NCBI GenBank assembly: GCA_903874275.1
Contig: CAIQRS010000105.1
Location: 1-32,525, forward strand
Direction of reading: 5' to 3'
Origin: an uncultured Anaeromyxobacter sp.
GTDB lineage: Bacteria > Myxococcota > Myxococcia > Myxococcales > Anaeromyxobacteraceae
DNA: 32,525 bases
Numbering within the stretch: position 1 is the stretch's first letter; every line of letters starts with the position of its first letter. Position numbers and translations under genes: made by a program. Positions 19,866 through 27,931 of this stretch are shown here, one piece after another. The notes beneath the pieces were generated by a model. That model was not told the origin of the DNA. It ran no database searches and saw only the letters and a list, made by a program, of their open reading frames with translations.

Positions 19866-19911
19866 TGGGGCAGTGCGCACATTGCCCCACCTCCCTGGGT
19901 GAGTAGCCCCA
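19866..19911 (+). promoter_or_regulatory. Upstream element of cytochrome gene 1 (putative enhancer-binding-protein site)
   Basis: TGGGGCA (19866-19872) and TGCCCCA (19883-19889) form perfect inverted arms around a GTGCGCAC palindrome (19873-19880). A further GCCCCA occurs at 19906-19911, 22 bp after the GCCCCA at 19884. The same arrangement recurs before cytochrome genes 2 and 4, each time about 85-120 bp upstream of a sigma54-type promoter. That placement suits an activator of sigma54-RNA polymerase. The protein that binds is unknown. Confidence 0.55.
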
Positions 19912-19938
19912 AGGCTGGACCCGTGGCGGGGCGTCCTG

Positions 19939-19980
19939 AAATATTTTACTTAATAATTATAGATAGTTGAAGAACATGTG
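19939..19980. other. AT-rich island between upstream element and promoter
   Basis: This 42-bp block is about 80% A+T in a very GC-rich region, lying between the upstream element and the -24/-12 promoter of cytochrome gene 1. The position is where a DNA-bending (IHF-type) site is often found in sigma54 promoters. It does not contain a good match to the IHF consensus. The rest of the 19852-20056 gap holds only the flanking elements listed. Confidence 0.4.
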
Positions 19981-19992
19981 TCCACTCTAATC

Positions 19993-20008
19993 TGGCTCGA
20001 TGCGTGCA
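19993..20008 (+). promoter_or_regulatory. Sigma54-type promoter of cytochrome gene 1
   Basis: TGGCTCGATGCGTGCA matches the -24/-12 pattern TGGCNCG-N4-NTGCA with GG and GC exactly 12 bp apart. The expected transcription start is near 20018, about 40 bp before the ATG. Equivalent sequences at the same distance from the ATG occur before genes 2 and 4. Confidence 0.6.
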
Positions 20009-20056
20009 GCCACCGCCGGGGCCGGTGCGGCGCAGCCAGCCGCCAGAGGGGACCAC

Positions 20057-22108
20057 ATGAAGCAGTTGTCGAATCTCGCCGTACTGGCCGTCGCCACGGT
20101 CGTCATCGCCGGATGCGGGGGCAACACGCCCACCCCGGCGGGAACTTCGGGCGAGCAGAAGGGCGTGTTCGGGGTCAGCTACTACGTGAGCGTGTCCCGC
20201 CCGGTGGGCGGCACCATCACCTCCGCCGACGGCCGGATCGACTGCGGCACCGCGGGCGGCACGAAGAACCTCTGCGAGCCCGTCTCCTTCGCGTGGGGCG
20301 CGACCGCCACCTTCACGGCCACCCCCGACGCGGGACAGTTCTTCCAGTCCTGGGCCGGTGACTGCTCGGGCGCCGTCGCCAGCGGCGTCGGCGGCTGCAG
20401 CCTGAACACCCTGACCCACGGCGCCGACAAGTGGGTGGTCGCGGTCTTCAATCCGCCCGACCAGCTCGGCCACTCCCGCATCCCGAACCCCGCACAGCAC
20501 TCCCCCCTCTTCTTCGACTTCATCAAGTCGAAGGCCACGCCGAATCCCGGCGCCCCGAAGTGCACCAGTTGCCATGGCGTGAACTACGACGGGGTCGCGA
20601 ATGCCCCCTCGTGCACCGCCTGCCACGCCGCGGCCAACCACGCCAACTGGCTCACCGACTGCAACTTCTGCCACGCCTTCCCGCCGGACACCGCGGGCCA
20701 CCGCGGCGATGCCCTGGCCACTCCTCCGGTACCTCCCGTCCCCTCGGTTGCGACGGCCTGCTCCCAGTGCCATCCCGAAACCGTCCTCGCCAGCGGCGCA
20801 ATCAACGCCGCCACGGGCGCACACATGAACGGCAAGTTGGACGGAGGGTGCAACTCCTGCCACGGCTTCCCGCCGGCCACCGGCGTGCACCTCGCGCACC
20901 TGTCCGGGAGCGCGAGCGCATACGGGGACCTCGGGACGCTGCAGTCGCGGTCGCCCGGGTCCGCGCAGCCCACCACGGCTTCGGCCACCTACGCCTTCGG
21001 CTGCGGCAATTGCCACCCCCTGGATCCTGCGCAGCACGTCACCACGGCGCCCCGCGCTGCCAAGGTCGTCCTCGACGACGGCGCCGGAACGACGACCCTC
21101 GCGTACTCGGACGCCCCGGACCTCCTCCCCCGCGTGCCCAGCCTCAAGTCCAGGAACGCCCCCGGCGCCTCGTACAACACGGCCAACAGGACCTGCAGCG
21201 GCGTCTACTGCCACTCCTCCGGGCAGGAGAACCCCACCTACGCCGTCACGCCCGCGTGGAATGGCACCTACACCACCAGGCTCGCGTGCAACTCCTGCCA
21301 CGCCAACCCGCCCAGGTACGTGTCGGGAGGGCCAAATGCCGGCAACGCCAACAGCCACCTCGGGTTCTCGGATCCGAGCAATCCCGCGCTGGGGGTCGAG
21401 GCCGGCCACTTCCTCGGGATGCCCGGACCGAGACACGAGCCGGGCTTCCCTGCGGGAGGAAGCAAGCACGGGCGCGGGCAATGGGCCGCGGGCGAGAACT
21501 CGGCTCCGATCACCTGCGAGAGTTGCCACTACGACACGACCGATCCTGCGAGCCGTGGACCGAGCGGCTTCTACTGGCTCGACACCACGGGCAATTACCA
21601 GCTCCCTGGCGGATCTTCGAGCCGGCTCGTGCCGACCGCGCCCGGCTACTCCTACTACGGCGCCATTTACGCTCAGTTGCAGTGCACCGCCTGTCACGGG
21701 CAAGGGAATCCCTCGGCGCCGGTCCAGCCAGGCCGGGTGCTGCCTCTGCGACACGTGAACGGCAAACGGGACGTCGTCTTCGATCCGCGGTCGACGTTGC
21801 CCACCCCTCCCACTCCGCCGGCCGTGGACCTCCTCGCCTGGCTCCCTGCGCCGCCCAACCGGCCCACGGCCCCTTACTGGGCCACCAACTCGGAGTTCTC
21901 GCCGTACGTATTCATGCAAGGTTGGGCTCCCTTCGTCATCCACGATGGCACCACCCACTCCTTCGGGCTCGGCAACGCCTCCTACGACCCTGGGACGAAG
22001 ACCTGCTCGAACGTCGGATGCCACGTGGGGGAGGCGCAGCCCGTCTGGGGAACCCCCTACTACCAATCCACCAACGGCAGCCTGGCCTGCTCGAACTGCC
22101 ATCCCTAG
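20057..22108 (+). CDS. Multihaem c-type cytochrome lipoprotein 1 (10 CxxCH + 2 CX4CH)
   Basis: The 683-aa product has a lipoprotein signal (VVIAGC, Cys20, followed by GGN). Residues about 35-120 resemble a divergent InlB B-repeat (VGGTITSADGRIDCG..., FFQSWAGDCSGAV). The rest is a haem array with ten CxxCH motifs (CTSCH, CTACH, CNFCH, CSQCH, CNSCH, CGNCH, CNSCH, CESCH, CTACH, CSNCH) and two CX4CH (CSGVYCH, CSNVGCH). The CX4CH...CXXCH alternation is the pattern described in Geobacter-type multihaem proteins. Electron transfer at the periplasm or outer membrane is likely; Gly after the lipid Cys favours outer-membrane sorting. The ATG at 20057 was chosen because it begins the signal peptide, follows GAGGGG, and lies downstream of the promoter. 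An in-frame ATG at 20000 lies inside the promoter. Confidence 0.92.
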   Translation: MKQLSNLAVLAVATVVIAGCGGNTPTPAGTSGEQKGVFGVSYYVSVSRPVGGTITSADGRIDCGTAGGTKNLCEPVSFAWGATATFTATPDAGQFFQSWAGDCSGAVASGVGGCSLNTLTHGADKWVVAVFNPPDQLGHSRIPNPAQHSPLFFDFIKSKATPNPGAPKCTSCHGVNYDGVANAPSCTACHAAANHANWLTDCNFCHAFPPDTAGHRGDALATPPVPPVPSVATACSQCHPETVLASGAINAATGAHMNGKLDGGCNSCHGFPPATGVHLAHLSGSASAYGDLGTLQSRSPGSAQPTTASATYAFGCGNCHPLDPAQHVTTAPRAAKVVLDDGAGTTTLAYSDAPDLLPRVPSLKSRNAPGASYNTANRTCSGVYCHSSGQENPTYAVTPAWNGTYTTRLACNSCHANPPRYVSGGPNAGNANSHLGFSDPSNPALGVEAGHFLGMPGPRHEPGFPAGGSKHGRGQWAAGENSAPITCESCHYDTTDPASRGPSGFYWLDTTGNYQLPGGSSSRLVPTAPGYSYYGAIYAQLQCTACHGQGNPSAPVQPGRVLPLRHVNGKRDVVFDPRSTLPTPPTPPAVDLLAWLPAPPNRPTAPYWATNSEFSPYVFMQGWAPFVIHDGTTHSFGLGNASYDPGTKTCSNVGCHVGEAQPVWGTPYYQSTNGSLACSNCHP

Positions 22109-22137
22109 CGACCTCGTCCCACCCGGGGCGTCCCGTT

Positions 22138-22182
22138 TGGGGCCTGCGCACGTTCCCCCACATCGCTGGGTGATTACCCCCA
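22138..22182 (+). promoter_or_regulatory. Upstream element of cytochrome gene 2
   Basis: TGGGG (22138-22142) and CCCCA (22156-22160) flank a TGCGCAC core (22145-22151). CCCCCA recurs at 22155 and 22177, again 22 bp apart. Intervening positions CTGGGTGATTA closely match the copy before gene 1. The element ends 84 bp before the sigma54-type promoter. The DNA between (about 22203-22255) is moderately AT-rich. Confidence 0.5.
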
Positions 22183-22265
22183 GTTCCCCAGGAGGGGGGC
22201 TCCTGTGCAGTTTTCAGTCTTTCAATGAACCCAAAGACTTACGCACGGTAAGCCTTCGCTTGGGC

Positions 22266-22281
22266 TGGCCCGCCCCGTGCA
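22266..22281 (+). promoter_or_regulatory. Sigma54-type promoter of cytochrome gene 2
   Basis: TGGCCCGCCCCGTGCA keeps the -24 GG and -12 GC at the required 12-bp separation and shares the GTGCA -12 element with genes 1 and 4. The -24 start lies 64 bp upstream of the ATG, identical to gene 1. Confidence 0.6.
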
Positions 22282-22329
22282 ACCCGATTGCGACTCGCAC
22301 CGTCGCGAGAGGTCAATGCAGGGGGGGAT

Positions 22330-24066
22330 ATGAGCCTGATCCTGACGCGTCGTTTGATCGCGCTGATCGTGGTCGCGGTGGTGTCCGCGTGCGGCGGGAA
22401 CAAGCCCGCTCCTGCCACCGGCTCCACCGGCGAGCAGAAGGGCGTCTACGGGGTCTCCTACTACGTGAGCGTGTCGCGCCCGGTGGGTGGCACGATCACC
22501 TCGGAGGACGGCCGGATCGACTGCGGCACGGCGGGCGGCACGAAGAACCTCTGCGATCCAATCTCCTTCGCCTGGGGCGCGACCGCGACCTTCACCGCCA
22601 CCCCCGACACCGGCCAGTTCTTTCAGTCCTGGGCCGGCGACTGCTCCGGCGCCGTCGCCAGCGGCGTCGGCGGCTGCAGCCTGAATACCCTGACCTACGG
22701 CAGCGACAAGTGGGTGGTGGCCGTCTTCAATCCCCCCGACCAGCTCGGCCACTCCCGCATCCCGAACCCGTCCCAGCACTCTCCCCTCTTCTTCGACTTC
22801 ATCAAGTCGAAGGCCACGCCGAATCCCGGCGCCCCGAAGTGCACCAACTGCCACGGCGCGAACTACACCGGCCTCGCCAACGCTCCGTCGTGCACCGCCT
22901 GCCACGCCGCCGCCGGCTTCCCCAACTGGCTCACCGACTGCAACTTCTGCCACCGCGCCCCTCCGGCGACCGGCGGTCACGCGTCCGTCCCCCCCGGTGA
23001 CGTCACCGCGTGCAACGAATGCCACCCCGACACCGTGCTCGCCAACGGCACCATCAACGCCGCCTCGGGCGCACACATGAACGGGAAGATGGACGGAGGG
23101 TGCGGCGGCTGTCACGCCTTGCCGCCCCCCACCGGCGCGCACGTCGCACACTTCGGCCTCACCGCTGCCGAACTCACCGGCGCGGAGGGCTCCACGGGCC
23201 ACGGCGACCTGGGCACGCTCCAGACCAGGTTCCCGCCGACCAGCGTGATCCCGGCCCCGGCCAAGTACGCATTCGGCTGCGGCAACTGCCACCCAATGGA
23301 CGACTCGCTCCACAACAACGGCACGAAGGACGTCGTCCTCACGAGGCCAGGCGTGGCCGGAAGCCTGAAGGAACTGAACGACCCGAACGCGGGATACAAC
23401 TCCACTTCCAAGACCTGCAGCGGGGTTTACTGCCACAGCCGCCTGGAGTTCTCCGCTCCGTTCGTGCCCGACCCGATCCTGGGCACGGGTCCCGGGTTCT
23501 ATCCAATCACGTATCCGCCCTACGACGTGTTCGTCACGCGCGTCTACACGAACCCGACGTGGGATGGCGCAACCCTCACCTGCAACGCGTGCCACGGGAT
23601 GCCGCCCCAGTCGTCGGACCCGGCCAACGCCGGGGGTGCCGGAGACTCCCACTCCTGGGTCAATCCCTTCGGAGTAGCAGACCTCCACGGCTATGCCATG
23701 GGCACGGGCCCCATCGCCTGCGCCACATGCCATTTCGACACGGTGACCCTCCAGGGCGTTCGGTCGCTCACGGGTTGGCAGGACTTCCCCGTCTACGAGG
23801 ACCTGCCAATCGCTAGCTTCGCCTCGCACGTCAACGGTCGCCCCGATGTCCGCTTCACCGACGAGAACATCTTGATGGGTAGTACCCCGTTCACGGCAAA
23901 TCCCACGCCCGCCCTGCCCCCCGCCCCCGCCGTACTGGCACCGGGCTGGGAGAGCGGAACGAAGACTTGCACGAATGTCTCCTGCCACCTGCAGCAGACC
24001 GAGGTGAAGTGGGGTAGGCCCTACCGCTACTGGACCGAGGAGTGCAACGTCTGCCACGCGTACTAG
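22330..24066 (+). CDS. Multihaem c-type cytochrome lipoprotein 2 (9 CxxCH + 2 CX4CH)
   Basis: The 578-aa paralogue has lipobox VVSAC (Cys21, then GGN), the same InlB-like domain and the same three-haem linker (CTNCH, CTACH, CNFCH). A variable part follows, with CNECH, CGGCH, CGNCH, CSGVYCH (CX4CH), CNACH, CATCH, CTNVSCH (CX4CH) and a terminal CNVCH. The C-terminal half aligns with gene 1 around AFGCGNCHP and TCSGVYCH, but the region between the two CX4CH motifs is different and shorter. The ATG at 22330 begins the signal peptide. An in-frame ATG at 22288 would lie before the expected transcription start and add 14 residues. A run of seven G (22321-22327) replaces a normal SD. Role inferred: outer-membrane or periplasmic electron carrier. 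Confidence 0.91.
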   Translation: MSLILTRRLIALIVVAVVSACGGNKPAPATGSTGEQKGVYGVSYYVSVSRPVGGTITSEDGRIDCGTAGGTKNLCDPISFAWGATATFTATPDTGQFFQSWAGDCSGAVASGVGGCSLNTLTYGSDKWVVAVFNPPDQLGHSRIPNPSQHSPLFFDFIKSKATPNPGAPKCTNCHGANYTGLANAPSCTACHAAAGFPNWLTDCNFCHRAPPATGGHASVPPGDVTACNECHPDTVLANGTINAASGAHMNGKMDGGCGGCHALPPPTGAHVAHFGLTAAELTGAEGSTGHGDLGTLQTRFPPTSVIPAPAKYAFGCGNCHPMDDSLHNNGTKDVVLTRPGVAGSLKELNDPNAGYNSTSKTCSGVYCHSRLEFSAPFVPDPILGTGPGFYPITYPPYDVFVTRVYTNPTWDGATLTCNACHGMPPQSSDPANAGGAGDSHSWVNPFGVADLHGYAMGTGPIACATCHFDTVTLQGVRSLTGWQDFPVYEDLPIASFASHVNGRPDVRFTDENILMGSTPFTANPTPALPPAPAVLAPGWESGTKTCTNVSCHLQQTEVKWGRPYRYWTEECNVCHAY

Positions 24067-24220
24067 CGGCGCCCACGACAAGCCACGAACCATGCGACGA
24101 CCACCGTGCCGATCCATGCACGACGAGTCACCTCACTCGGGCGGTGGCGCGCCATATCCGATTGACTGGCGATTCCTCCGGTTCTTTCCGGCTCTTGTCG
24201 ATCTGCTCCGCCGGCGTCCA

Positions 24221-24240
24221 TGGCTCGTTCCCGCCATGCA
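24221..24240 (+). promoter_or_regulatory. Degenerate sigma54-type promoter of cytochrome gene 3
   Basis: TGGCTCGTTCC is identical to the -24 half and spacer of gene 4 and lies 65 bp before the ATG. The following bases are CGCCATGCA, so the -12 GC no longer falls at the correct distance: it is 1 bp short for GC at 24233-24234, and 4 bp long for the TGCA at 24237-24240. The upstream element is also only weakly recognisable (24117-24145). This looks like a decayed or altered copy. Confidence 0.4.
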
Positions 24241-24285
24241 GGAATTGCCCGTAGACGGCTGAGGGGCCGTACTTGGGGGGGGCAC

Positions 24286-26073
24286 ATGGTTCGTCTTCGG
24301 AAGCTCGCCGGACTGGCTGCTGCCATCGTCGTCGCCGCGTGCGGGGGCAACGCGCCTTCGCCGACGTCGACCACGGCGGGCGAGCAGAAGGGCGTGTACG
24401 GGGTCTCCTACTTCGTGAGCGTCTCCCGCCCGGTGGGAGGCACCATCACCTCCGCCGACGGCCTCATCGACTGCGGCACCGCGGGCGGCGCGAAGAACCT
24501 CTGCGCCCCGGTCTCTTACGCCTGGGGCGCCACTGCCGTCCTCTCCGCCAAGGCGGACGACGGCCAGTACTTCCAGTCCTGGGCGGGCGAGTGCGGCGGG
24601 GCCGTGGCCGACGGCGGCTGCAGGCTCGACACCGTGATCTACGGCACCGACAAGTGGGTGGTCGCCGTCTTCAACCCGCCCGACCAGCTCGGCCACTCCC
24701 GCATCCCCGACCCGGCCCAGCACGCCCCGCTCTACCGCGACTTCATCAAGTCCACCGCTACCCCGAACCCCGGTGTCCCGCAGTGCACCCGCTGTCACGG
24801 CCAGGATTACAACGGCCTCGCCAACGCCCCCTCCTGCACCGCCTGCCACGCCGCCGCCGGCAAGCCCAACTGGCTCGGCGACTGCTCCTTCTGCCACGCC
24901 TTCCCGCCCGCCACCGGGGCCCACGCCGCCCACTTCGGCCTGACCGGCGCCGCGGCCTCCGGCATCTACGGCGATCTGTCGGTCCTCCAGGACCGCTACC
25001 CCGGCGCCACGCCCACCAGCGCGCCCTCGACCTACGCCTTCGGCTGCGGCAACTGCCACCCCGCCACCGACGAGGGCAAGCACATGGATGGCGTCACCCA
25101 GGTCTCGCTCTTCGAGGCCAGCGCCCCGGCCAGCAGCCTGAAGGCGCGCAACTCGGCGACCGCCGCGTACGACCCGGCCGTAAGAACCTGCAGCGGCGTC
25201 TACTGCCACTCGAGCGGGAACGACGGCAGCCCGATCTACGTGACCACGCCGACCTGGGCGCTCCCCTCCCCCACTTCCAAGCTCGCCTGCAACGGCTGCC
25301 ACGCCAACCCGCCCAGGTACGCCTCCGGCGGGGCCGGTCTTGCCACGGCCAACAGCCACCTGCAGTTTTCGGCCGACGCGTCCTCCCCCTGGGGCCATTA
25401 CGCCTTCGTCATGACCGAGCGCCGGTACACGCAGCACGGGCGCGGGAACGCACCCAACTTCCTGAACTGGAGCCAGATCGTCTACTCCGACGCCGCGCCC
25501 ATCACCTGCCAGACCTGCCACTTCGACACCACCGACCCGTCGAGCACCGGGCCGAGCCGTTTCTACTGGCTCGACACGACCGGGGACTACACCCTGCTTC
25601 CCAACGCCTGGGACTACGAGTACGTCTGCACCTCCTGCCACTCCGCTGCGAGCGCGACGGCGCCGCTGGGCCAGGGCAGGGTCCTGCCGCTGCGGCACGT
25701 CAACGGCTCGCGCGACGTCCAGTTCGACGCCCGCACCGAGGATCCCGGCGCGAGCTGGGTGCCGGGCGCCGACAGGCCGGTGCGCCCCTACTGGTTCACC
25801 CAGGGTTCCACGACCTCGGCCTGGTGGATCAACACCAACCGGACCATGGTCGGGACGACGGCCCAGTTCGACCTCTCCCCGGCCCGCTACGATCCGGTGC
25901 AGAAGACCTGCACCAACGTCACCTGCCACATGGCCCAGGGCAACACGAGCTACACGGGTACGGACCCCTCGACCCGCTTCGAGGTGCTGCGGTGGGGCGC
26001 CCCGTACTACGTCAGCACCAACGTTCCGGCCACCGGACGGACAACCTGCAGCGCCTGCCACCGCGGCATGTGA
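24286..26073 (+). CDS. Multihaem c-type cytochrome lipoprotein 3 (8 CxxCH + 2 CX4CH)
   Basis: The 595-aa paralogue has lipobox VVAAC (Cys19, then GGN), the InlB-like domain, and a three-haem segment that is the most diverged of the four (CTRCH, CTACH, CSFCH). It lacks the CxxCH pair found next in genes 1 and 2 and passes directly to AFGCGNCHP, then CSGVYCH, CNGCH, CQTCH, CTSCH, CTNVTCH and CSACH. Its C-terminal half is closely related to gene 1: CHANPPRYxSGG, DTTDPxSxGPSxFYWLDTTG and RVLPLRHVNGxRDV are shared. The ATG at 24286 begins the signal peptide, behind a run of eight G (24275-24282). The reading frame is intact despite the altered promoter. It ends directly against a relic of aceE. 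Confidence 0.91.
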   Translation: MVRLRKLAGLAAAIVVAACGGNAPSPTSTTAGEQKGVYGVSYFVSVSRPVGGTITSADGLIDCGTAGGAKNLCAPVSYAWGATAVLSAKADDGQYFQSWAGECGGAVADGGCRLDTVIYGTDKWVVAVFNPPDQLGHSRIPDPAQHAPLYRDFIKSTATPNPGVPQCTRCHGQDYNGLANAPSCTACHAAAGKPNWLGDCSFCHAFPPATGAHAAHFGLTGAAASGIYGDLSVLQDRYPGATPTSAPSTYAFGCGNCHPATDEGKHMDGVTQVSLFEASAPASSLKARNSATAAYDPAVRTCSGVYCHSSGNDGSPIYVTTPTWALPSPTSKLACNGCHANPPRYASGGAGLATANSHLQFSADASSPWGHYAFVMTERRYTQHGRGNAPNFLNWSQIVYSDAAPITCQTCHFDTTDPSSTGPSRFYWLDTTGDYTLLPNAWDYEYVCTSCHSAASATAPLGQGRVLPLRHVNGSRDVQFDARTEDPGASWVPGADRPVRPYWFTQGSTTSAWWINTNRTMVGTTAQFDLSPARYDPVQKTCTNVTCHMAQGNTSYTGTDPSTRFEVLRWGAPYYVSTNVPATGRTTCSACHRGM

Positions 26074-26129
26074 AATGGATCGACGCCCTCGAGGGCGTCA
26101 TCGCCCGGGAAGGGCCGGAGCGGCCCCAC
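26074..26129 (+). pseudogene. Relic of the aceE 5' coding region
   Basis: These 56 bp match intact aceE at 28159-28214 with 52 identities and no gap, encoding WIDALEGVIAREGP (Trp15 onward of AceE) in one frame. The relic begins immediately after the TGA of cytochrome gene 3 and has no start codon, leader or continuation. Differences are one synonymous change (Leu) and a few near the 3' end. It is best read as a scar of a duplication or rearrangement involving the gene 3-aceE junction. Confidence 0.85.
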
Positions 26130-26134
26130 CCAGT

Positions 26135-26195
26135 TGGGGCTACCCCTCCGGGTACCGTGCGCACATTGCCCCACCCGCCTGAGTGAGTACACCCA
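26135..26195 (+). promoter_or_regulatory. Upstream element of cytochrome gene 4
   Basis: A GTGCGCACATTGCCCCACC block (26157-26175) is nearly identical to the gene 1 copy. GCCCCA (26168-26173) and CACCCA (26190-26195) are again 22 bp apart. The left TGGGGC arm is 15 bp further away (26135-26140), because a small hairpin TACCCCTCCGGGTA is inserted, probably a by-product of the rearrangement that left the aceE relic next to it. The element ends 82 bp before the sigma54-type promoter. Confidence 0.5.
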
Positions 26196-26276
26196 TGCGG
26201 GCTGACGCGCCCCTTCCGGGATCTTGGCTTTCCACTGTATTTTCCATGGCTTGACCTCCCGTCCCGTCCACGTCGA

Positions 26277-26292
26277 TGGCTCGTTCCGTGCA
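26277..26292 (+). promoter_or_regulatory. Sigma54-type promoter of cytochrome gene 4
   Basis: TGGCTCGTTCCGTGCA has the -24 GG and -12 GC at the correct 12-bp separation, 65 bp before the ATG. It shares the -24 half with genes 1 and 3 and the GTGCA element with genes 1 and 2. The leader also shares CGGCTGAGGGGCCG with gene 3 (26312-26325 versus 24256-24269). Confidence 0.6.
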
Positions 26293-26341
26293 CGCAGGGA
26301 ATGACTTTCTGCGGCTGAGGGGCCGCATCGGGGGGGGGCAC

Positions 26342-27931
26342 ATGGGACGTCTTTCGAAGATCGCAGTCTTGCTAGGGGCCACGGTCGTCATCGCCGGATG
26401 CGGGGGCAACCAGCCCACCCCGGCGGGAACTTCGGGCGAGCAGAAGGGCGTGTTCGGGGTCTCTTACTACGTGAGCGTGTCGCGCCCGGTGGGCGGCACC
26501 ATCACCTCCGCCGACGGCCGCATCGACTGCGGCACCGCGGGCGGCACGAAGAACCTCTGCGAGCCCGTCTCCTTTGCCTGGGGCGCTACCGCCTCCTTCA
26601 CCGCCACCGCCGACACCGGCCAGTTCTTCCAGTCCTGGGCCGGCGACTGCTCCGGCGCCGTCGCCAGCGGCGTCGGCGGCTGCAGCCTGAATACCCTGAC
26701 CTACGGCAGCGACAAGTGGGTGGTCGCGGTGTTCAACCCGCCCGACCAGCTCGGCCACTCCCGCATCCCGAACCCCGCCCAGCACTCTCCCCTCTTCTTC
26801 GACTTCATCAAGTCGAAGGCCACCCCGGATCCCGGCGCCCCGAAGTGCACCAACTGCCACGGCGCGAACTACACCGGCCTCGCCAACGCTCCTTCCTGCA
26901 CCGCATGCCACGCGGCGGCCGGTCACGGCAACTGGCTGACCGACTGCGGCTTCTGCCACGGAGCTCCGCCTCCTCCTCCTCACTCCACGTCCACCGGCTG
27001 CAACGGCTGCCACCCCGGCACCGTGAACTCCGACGGGACGATCGTCGCCGGCGGGCTTCACATGGACGGGCAGGTCCAGGGGAGCGGCGGAGGCGGTCAC
27101 GCCGCGGGCTTCGCCAACCCCGCCGTGCATGGCCCCCAGTACCTCGGCCACCTGGGCGGCGTTCCGAACAGCCCGGACTGCACCGGATGCCACGGTCCCA
27201 CCATGGCGACCTGCACGAATTGCCACTCGAGCGTGGCGGGTGGCAGCTGGGTGAACTGGCAGTCAAACTGCACCTTCTGCCACGGCACGGCCACCAAGAC
27301 CTACACCTTGGCCAATCTCGCGATGGCCGCGCCGCCGAGCGCGGTCGTCGCCTACGCCCCGCCGCCGGCCTTCCCGGAGAGCCAGCGCACGGGCAAGCAC
27401 GCAGCCCATGCGACGTCGGCCTGCACCACCTGCCACGTCGTGCCGACCAACCTCTCCCACATCGGAGCGACCGGGCGCGCCACGGTGACGCTGGTGGGGT
27501 ACAGCGCGGCGACCTCGACCTGTACGGTCTCCTGCCACGGTGCGACCACCCAGAGCTGGGACACTGCCGCTCCCTCGCTCAGCTGCACGAGTTGCCACGA
27601 TCAGCCGCCGCTCACGGGTAAGAATTCGAGCAAGTGGGTAAATAGCGGTCCCACCATGCACGACGGGCACGTCAACGATGCCCCCGAGTGGACCGCCTAC
27701 GTGGGCAACGTCGCCGGCATGTGGGATTCCGGCTACGCGGCGGAACTGGTCTGCGTGGACTGCCACGCAAACTCGGTGAACCCAGATGGCACCATCCGCG
27801 CCTTCGGAACCCACACGAATGGCATCCAGGGAGACGTCGCCTTCGGCGGGGGGCTGGGCGGGAGCGCGACGGTCACGCCGAGCCAGGTCACTTGCGCCAT
27901 GGCCTGCCACGGCTCCAGGACCTGGTACTGA
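26342..27931 (+). CDS. Multihaem c-type cytochrome lipoprotein 4 (10 CxxCH + 2 CX3CH)
   Basis: The 529-aa paralogue has lipobox VVIAGC (Cys20, then GGN), an InlB-like domain and a three-haem segment almost identical to genes 1 and 2. After CNGCH its C-terminal half is unrelated to the other three: CTGCH, CTNCH, CTFCH, CTTCH, CTVSCH, CTSCH, CVDCH and a final CAMACH. CTVSCH and CAMACH are CX3CH, not CX4CH. It contains Gly-rich stretches and several free His (HAAHATS, TMHDGHVND) that could serve as distal haem ligands. The ATG at 26342 begins the signal peptide, after a run of nine G (26330-26338). The likely role is periplasmic or outer-membrane electron transfer with a different partner or haem geometry. 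Confidence 0.91.
   Translation: MGRLSKIAVLLGATVVIAGCGGNQPTPAGTSGEQKGVFGVSYYVSVSRPVGGTITSADGRIDCGTAGGTKNLCEPVSFAWGATASFTATADTGQFFQSWAGDCSGAVASGVGGCSLNTLTYGSDKWVVAVFNPPDQLGHSRIPNPAQHSPLFFDFIKSKATPDPGAPKCTNCHGANYTGLANAPSCTACHAAAGHGNWLTDCGFCHGAPPPPPHSTSTGCNGCHPGTVNSDGTIVAGGLHMDGQVQGSGGGGHAAGFANPAVHGPQYLGHLGGVPNSPDCTGCHGPTMATCTNCHSSVAGGSWVNWQSNCTFCHGTATKTYTLANLAMAAPPSAVVAYAPPPAFPESQRTGKHAAHATSACTTCHVVPTNLSHIGATGRATVTLVGYSAATSTCTVSCHGATTQSWDTAAPSLSCTSCHDQPPLTGKNSSKWVNSGPTMHDGHVNDAPEWTAYVGNVAGMWDSGYAAELVCVDCHANSVNPDGTIRAFGTHTNGIQGDVAFGGGLGGSATVTPSQVTCAMACHGSRTWY

Follow-up and report, generated by a model that had tools for sequence, protein, structure and literature searches.

Upstream regions of the tandem cytochrome genes

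Genomes of the Anaeromyxobacteraceae are rich in multihaem cytochrome genes, and a dedicated transcriptional regulator of these genes was not found in the literature searched. The stretch of 32,525 nucleotides analysed here (the window), on contig C105 of a 5.07-Mb draft genome of an uncultured Anaeromyxobacter sp., contains four genes for lipoprotein multihaem cytochromes in tandem and raises the question whether these genes share a common switch and which regulator would operate it. Enhancer-dependent control by sigma54 is classical, and a preliminary description of the DNA had proposed a sigma54-dependent regulon under the control of a dedicated enhancer-binding protein (EBP), in which each gene forms its own transcription unit. 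Genes were called with a simple GC3 heuristic; their products show variable matches to PF09698, Cytochrome_C7 and MtrC/F-like models, and an InlB-like N-terminal domain was detected in genes 1 and 2. The coordinates of all features are compiled in Table 1.

The -24/-12 elements of genes 1, 2 and 4 were confirmed at the positions and with the spacing described before. All three have the GG-N10-GC spacing and match 10 of 12 consensus positions (TGGCACG-N4-TTGCW). In isolation the motif is weak evidence for a sigma54 promoter, four matches being found against 0.9 expected when one mismatch is allowed; the strength of the evidence lies in the position of the elements and in the recurrence of their combination with one and the same palindrome (see below) before further cytochrome genes, both in this genome and in relatives. 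Upstream of gene 3 only a degenerate promoter is present, and a weight-matrix search for a dyad in this region found none. Gene 3, which the preliminary description had not included, lacks both the palindrome and an intact -12 element; its transcription may depend on read-through from gene 2, or its expression may be low. The view that each gene is its own transcription unit therefore holds for genes 1, 2 and 4 but not for gene 3.

Further upstream, a TGCGCAC core and two half-sites 22 bp apart had been described. These sequences and the period are present (CCCCA, CCCCA and ACCCA repeats at 19885/19907, 22156/22178 and 26169/26191, respectively), but the element is in fact a 38-bp block of two imperfect 16-bp palindromes in tandem, separated by 6 bp. 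TGCGCAC is the left arm of the distal palindrome, and the 22-bp period is the distance between the palindrome centres at each of the three genes. The block of gene 1 reads TGCGCACATTGCCCCA-N6-TGGGTGAGTAGCCCCA, the blocks of genes 2 and 4 are equivalent, and 81 to 83 bp lie between the end of the block and the -24/-12 element. The consensus of the palindrome is TGGGKGAWWTCMCCCA. Within the 5.07-Mb genome the 38-bp pattern TGCGCAC..CCCCA..TGRGTGA..CCCA occurs three times, exclusively at genes 1, 2 and 4 (reversed control: 0), and for a 27-bp core no occurrence is expected from shuffling.

The dyads were scored with a model that had been trained, with the window excluded, on cytochrome promoters from elsewhere. 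Within the 32.5-kb window its top five matches are the three proximal dyads (genes 2, 1 and 4) and two of the distal ones (genes 1 and 4). The proximal dyad of gene 2 is also one of three matches in the genome to the palindrome with at most one mismatch. The putative dyads of genes 1 and 4 differ from the consensus at three positions and are weak against the strict pattern, which at three mismatches is by itself not significant within the window; their assignment rests on the weight matrix together with the context.

Table 1. Positions of the cytochrome genes, their upstream elements and the candidate regulatory pair (window coordinates unless a contig is given).
Feature	Position	Strand	Remarks
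Gene 1 distal dyad, TGCGCACATTGCCCCA	19874..19889		score 12.2
Gene 1 proximal dyad, TGGGTGAGTAGCCCCA	19896..19911		score 14.6
Gene 1 promoter, TGGCTCGATGCGTGCA	19993..20008	+	64 bp before ATG 20057
Gene 1	20057..22108	+	lipoprotein multihaem c-type cytochrome, 683 aa, 10 CxxCH + 2 C4xCH
Gene 2 distal dyad, TGCGCACGTTCCCCCA	22145..22160		score 9.2
Gene 2 proximal dyad, TGGGTGATTACCCCCA	22167..22182		score 20.4, top match of whole window
Gene 2 promoter, TGGCCCGCCCCGTGCA	22266..22281	+	64 bp before ATG 22330
Gene 2	22330..24066	+	multihaem cytochrome, 578 aa
Gene 3 degenerate promoter, TGGCTCGTTCCCGCCA	24221..24236	+	no -12 GC at right spacing
Gene 3	24286..26073	+	multihaem cytochrome, 595 aa, without shared promoter
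Gene 4 distal dyad, TGCGCACATTGCCCCA	26158..26173		score 12.2
Gene 4 proximal dyad, TGAGTGAGTACACCCA	26180..26195		score 14.5
Gene 4 promoter, TGGCTCGTTCCGTGCA	26277..26292	+	65 bp before ATG 26342
Gene 4	26342..27931	+	multihaem cytochrome, 529 aa
NtrC-family response regulator	C253, L193 2773-4161
Partner histidine kinase	C253, L193 4158-5669		membrane protein, periplasmic Cache-type domain, one CxxCH haem motif

Conservation of the elements

The genes are tandem paralogues, and the N-terminal domains of genes 1, 2 and 4 (about 170 residues) are 91-94% identical, so that the similarity of the three upstream regions could be read as a remnant of recent tandem duplication without regulatory meaning. 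This is hardly conceivable in view of the intergenic DNA itself: pairwise identity amounts to 0.76-0.87 in the block (shuffled about 0.6) and 0.75-0.88 in the promoter (shuffled about 0.55), whereas the roughly 82 bp between them reach only 0.49-0.59, which is the level of shuffled sequence. Moreover, the same elements precede non-syntenic cytochrome genes on other contigs and in other genera. Recent duplication, an objection already raised in the preliminary description, was therefore rejected as the cause of the conservation, and the persistence of element and promoter amid DNA at shuffle level supports the proposed regulon. It is likewise very improbable that the block is an RNA element or a terminator of the upstream gene and not a protein-binding site. 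Its inverted repeats could fold as RNA, but it is located upstream of the promoter, terminator-like sites are absent at the blocks, and a fixed 16-bp palindrome with helical phasing is kept in many contexts. Neither the region nor the related loci matched an Rfam covariance model (e.g., GEMM riboswitches), and a known riboswitch or another cis-acting leader RNA of Rfam was rejected on this ground.

Two observations on the genes themselves can be added. Across genes 1, 2 and 4 (20057-27931) the haem-bearing remainder is only 32-47% identical; as the N-terminal domain is far more alike, the genes appear to be mosaics, the domain perhaps being homogenised by gene conversion. Fourfold sites in the conserved N-terminal coding domain differ by 22-25%, and a search with this domain among named genomes found seven loci, three of them within the Anaeromyxobacteraceae. 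In relatives, the 5' leaders of cytochrome genes (L049, L050, L051, L053 and L054; about 110 nt from promoter to ATG) contain two conserved hairpins, with two-sided, pair-keeping changes in 5 of 16 predicted pairs and no Rfam match, and a structured leader RNA is possible there.

Occurrence of the palindrome and helical phasing

For an analysis independent of motif selection, the upstream regions of 59 cytochrome genes of the family were screened for the half-sites TGGGK and MCCCA at spacers of 3 to 12. A spacer of 6 was most enriched (17 of 59 against 2.7 in shuffles); spacers of 7 to 12 gave 1 to 6 of 59, and runs of C spill half-site matches into spacers 4 and 5. All ten half-site positions at spacer 6 were matched in 4 of 59 cytochrome upstream regions (0.1 expected) and at 4 of 110 non-cytochrome genes of the same loci; the dyad is thus not exclusive to cytochromes. 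Sigma54 sites with at least 10 of 12 positions were found at 13 of the 59 (0.8 expected by shuffling) and at 5 of 110 other genes. A strong dyad is absent at about two thirds of the multihaem genes of the family, including a paralogue of the own genome on C270.

De novo palindromic expectation maximisation (EM) on 28 sigma54-associated cytochrome upstream regions, with the window excluded, yielded TGGGkGAwwTCmCCCA (LLR 106.9, shuffled maximum 29.1). A separate run on 12 kinase promoters (see below), which used no cytochrome data, yielded TGGGTGAwwTCACCCA (LLR 79 against 32 shuffled), so that both promoter sets lead to the same palindrome, TGGGKGAWWTCMCCCA. The 12 promoters were those kept from 19 after removal of loci in which the EM had captured conserved hemA coding sequence. 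With at most one mismatch, the pattern TGSGKGAWWTCMCSCA occurs at 59 sites in 24 family genomes, compared with four for the reversed control. In other genera, both orthologues and paralogues of the cytochrome genes are preceded by palindrome and sigma54 promoter, which further supports the regulon; the relatives matched include Anaeromyxobacter oryzae Red232 and A. oryzisoli SG63. Many palindromes in relatives are without a sigma54 match at the threshold used. The pattern of a single half-site plus promoter was not enriched over the control across the family and is therefore uninformative.

The own genome was covered by pattern searches and, with the weight matrix, by about 470 kb of fetched loci (overlaps included). 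Among the loci examined, dyad and sigma54 promoter are combined at six multihaem cytochromes (genes 1, 2 and 4 and one each on C226, C85 and C128) and at three genes of a kinase-hemA locus, encoding the kinase, a sigma-70-type factor and a B12-radical-SAM protein. Wherever a dyad scoring at least 14 bits in these fetched loci was accompanied by a sigma54 match and followed by a gene, it belonged to a multihaem cytochrome or to the kinase-hemA locus. In several family genomes, palindromes also flank genes for large lipoprotein cytochromes that contain 9-10 CxxCH and have a collagen-like N-terminus rich in glycine (L292, L295, L300 and L306).

The gaps between dyad and -24 lie near 32, 41, 51, 63, 75, 82 and 104 bp and show a Rayleigh peak at 10.5-10.75 bp (R 0.60, permutation p about 3e-4; R 0.56, p 1e-4 with the window excluded), in a list in which obvious orthologues were collapsed by hand and which includes loci fetched by the dyad pattern. 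The distances of secondary dyads fall mainly into groups at 21-22, 29-33 and 39-40 bp; fewer lie at 14 and 17-19. Dyad sites, usually two or more, located upstream and helically phased to the promoter are characteristic of NtrC-type enhancers; in the window there are two tandem dyads per promoter. Such phasing is predicted if an oligomeric activator reaches the sigma54 polymerase by looping from a single helix face.

A candidate activator encoded beside hemA

Contig C253 of the own genome carries TGGGTGGATTCACCCA, which ranks among the best palindromes found elsewhere than in the window. It is located 32 bp upstream of TGGCGCGGTCCTTGCG and in front of an operon encoding a histidine kinase and an NtrC-family response regulator. 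Among 22 activator operons checked, this is the only one with the arrangement of dyad and promoter. The regulator comprises PF00072, PF00158 and PF02954 (receiver, AAA+ and Fis-type HTH), and its GAFTGA-type loop reads GSFTDA. The pair adjoins hemA, which encodes the first step of haem synthesis, and the arrangement hemA-kinase-activator is found repeatedly in the family. Of the 24 family genomes, 22 contain a single copy of the kinase, and dyads precede the kinase or hemA in most of those that carry it; in the genus including A. dehalogenans and A. oryzae the dyad is found before hemA instead. A kinase orthologue in another family has kept the dyad together with TGGTACGGTCCTTGCT, and several orthologues outside the family lack the dyad.

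The AlphaFold model of the kinase sensor domain (pLDDT 89.6) has a Cache fold which resembles CitA, WalK and the Geobacter haem-c domains GSU0935 and GSU0582, and CxxCH is present in the kinases of the family. The domain does not reach the Pfam cut-off for sCache_haem/DUF3365 (PF11845; 13.8 bits against 24.1, best E 0.0042 among the orthologues).

Two kinase orthologues from another family of the order (L331 and L332) have CxxCS in place of CxxCH. L332 keeps dyad and promoter, so that the haem motif may have been lost while these elements remained. The own genome encodes a second kinase with two CxxCH (L242, C253:40500-48500), which forms an operon with an NtrC-type activator and lacks the palindrome.

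Comparison with known systems

The arrangement resembles the EBP regulons of Desulfovibrio vulgaris (PMC4641369), in which a dyad enhancer, usually in tandem, lies upstream of a GG-N10-GC promoter, the EBP operon has its own site and the motif can be derived by comparison of promoters; motif reconstruction from activator promoters thus has a precedent. In comparison with NtrC-family enhancer/sigma54 systems, the palindrome TGGGKGAWWTCMCCCA and the cytochrome and hemA targets were not found in the literature searched. Among myxobacteria, NmpRSTU of Myxococcus xanthus (PMC11841059) likewise combines an NtrC-like regulator of a respiratory regulon with tandem enhancers and sigma54, but the NmpR site is GCGCA-N5-TGCGC and the proposed sensor is a protoglobin kinase. 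NmpR sites were rejected as an explanation of the elements, the window containing 44 matches with at most two mismatches (50 expected) and none within the elements.

With the haem Cache sensors DUF3365/Tll0287 (PMC12889525) and Geobacter GSU0935/GSU0582 the kinase shares the periplasmic Cache fold and one similarly placed CxxCH. Foldseek finds both Geobacter proteins, and the matches to PF21563 and PF11845 stay below the cut-off. The kinase differs from these sensors in being too divergent for the Pfam cut-offs, in its coupling to an EBP beside hemA and in the CxxCS of the two orthologues mentioned above. In Geobacter sulfurreducens, the RpoN regulon (PMC2725144) ties sigma54 to extracellular electron transfer genes including cytochromes; a common enhancer motif or a dedicated cytochrome EBP was not found in the passages of that study consulted. 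No description of the palindrome, of the kinase/activator pair or of a sigma54 regulon for cytochromes in Anaeromyxobacter came to light in the literature searched, which contained few subscription journals.

Proposed regulation

The best explanation, to which we assign a probability of about 0.8, is that genes 1, 2 and 4 are transcribed from sigma54 promoters and activated through the tandem dyads, most likely by the NtrC-family regulator encoded on C253 together with its haem-Cache kinase. Each of the three genes would be transcribed separately, with activation from two tandem 16-bp palindromes lying on the same helix face about 80 bp upstream of -24. Once phosphorylated, the activator would occupy the dyads and make contact with RNA polymerase-sigma54 by looping, and multihaem cytochromes would be raised, in some species together with hemA. 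The kinase/activator pair is itself predicted to be autoregulated since it carries the same palindrome and a sigma54 promoter, which provides a specific candidate for the dedicated EBP postulated earlier. Together with the conservation of the elements and their occurrence in other genera, this makes the regulon of the preliminary description well supported. A switch apparently shared by three genes here, by cytochromes of relatives and by one putative haem-sensing pair points to a single, previously unnamed master controller.

Alternatively, the sigma54 promoters could be real while another regulator, either a second EBP or a factor of the CRP/FNR type, binds the palindrome and has the haem-kinase operon among its targets. 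The connection between the sites and the regulator gene consists solely of the shared motif and the predicted autoregulation, the genome contains 34 PF00158 matches (22 operons checked), and there is the second CxxCH kinase/activator pair, but none of the other 21 checked activator operons has the element. As the element is met again at the kinase locus in different genera of the family and in one further family, and its helical phasing to -24 is what a sigma54 activator needs, we consider this alternative improbable and prefer the C253 regulator.

Signalling haem-Cache domains are reported in a 2026 preprint (PMC12889525) to have properties of NO sensors and not of O2 sensors. Purely by analogy with such characterised sensors, NO or redox would be a plausible signal for the C253 pair; haem or maturation status may serve instead. 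As a tentative and rather doubtful extension, the regulon might govern haem economy: the kinase haem would report maturation capacity or haem supply (or NO/redox), and one sigma54 activator would set hemA, its own synthesis, an alternative sigma factor gene and the multihaem cytochromes of extracellular respiration throughout the Anaeromyxobacteraceae. The analysis provides a defined predicted binding site, an activator/kinase pair conserved in 22 of the 24 family genomes and a connection with the enzyme that starts haem synthesis; the matching of cytochrome output to haem supply or an environmental signal thereby becomes directly testable in cultured strains.

A sigma-70-family factor gene is oriented divergently from the kinase/activator operon (L193 1773, L211 656) and, as it has its own dyad, suggests a sigma cascade inside the regulon.
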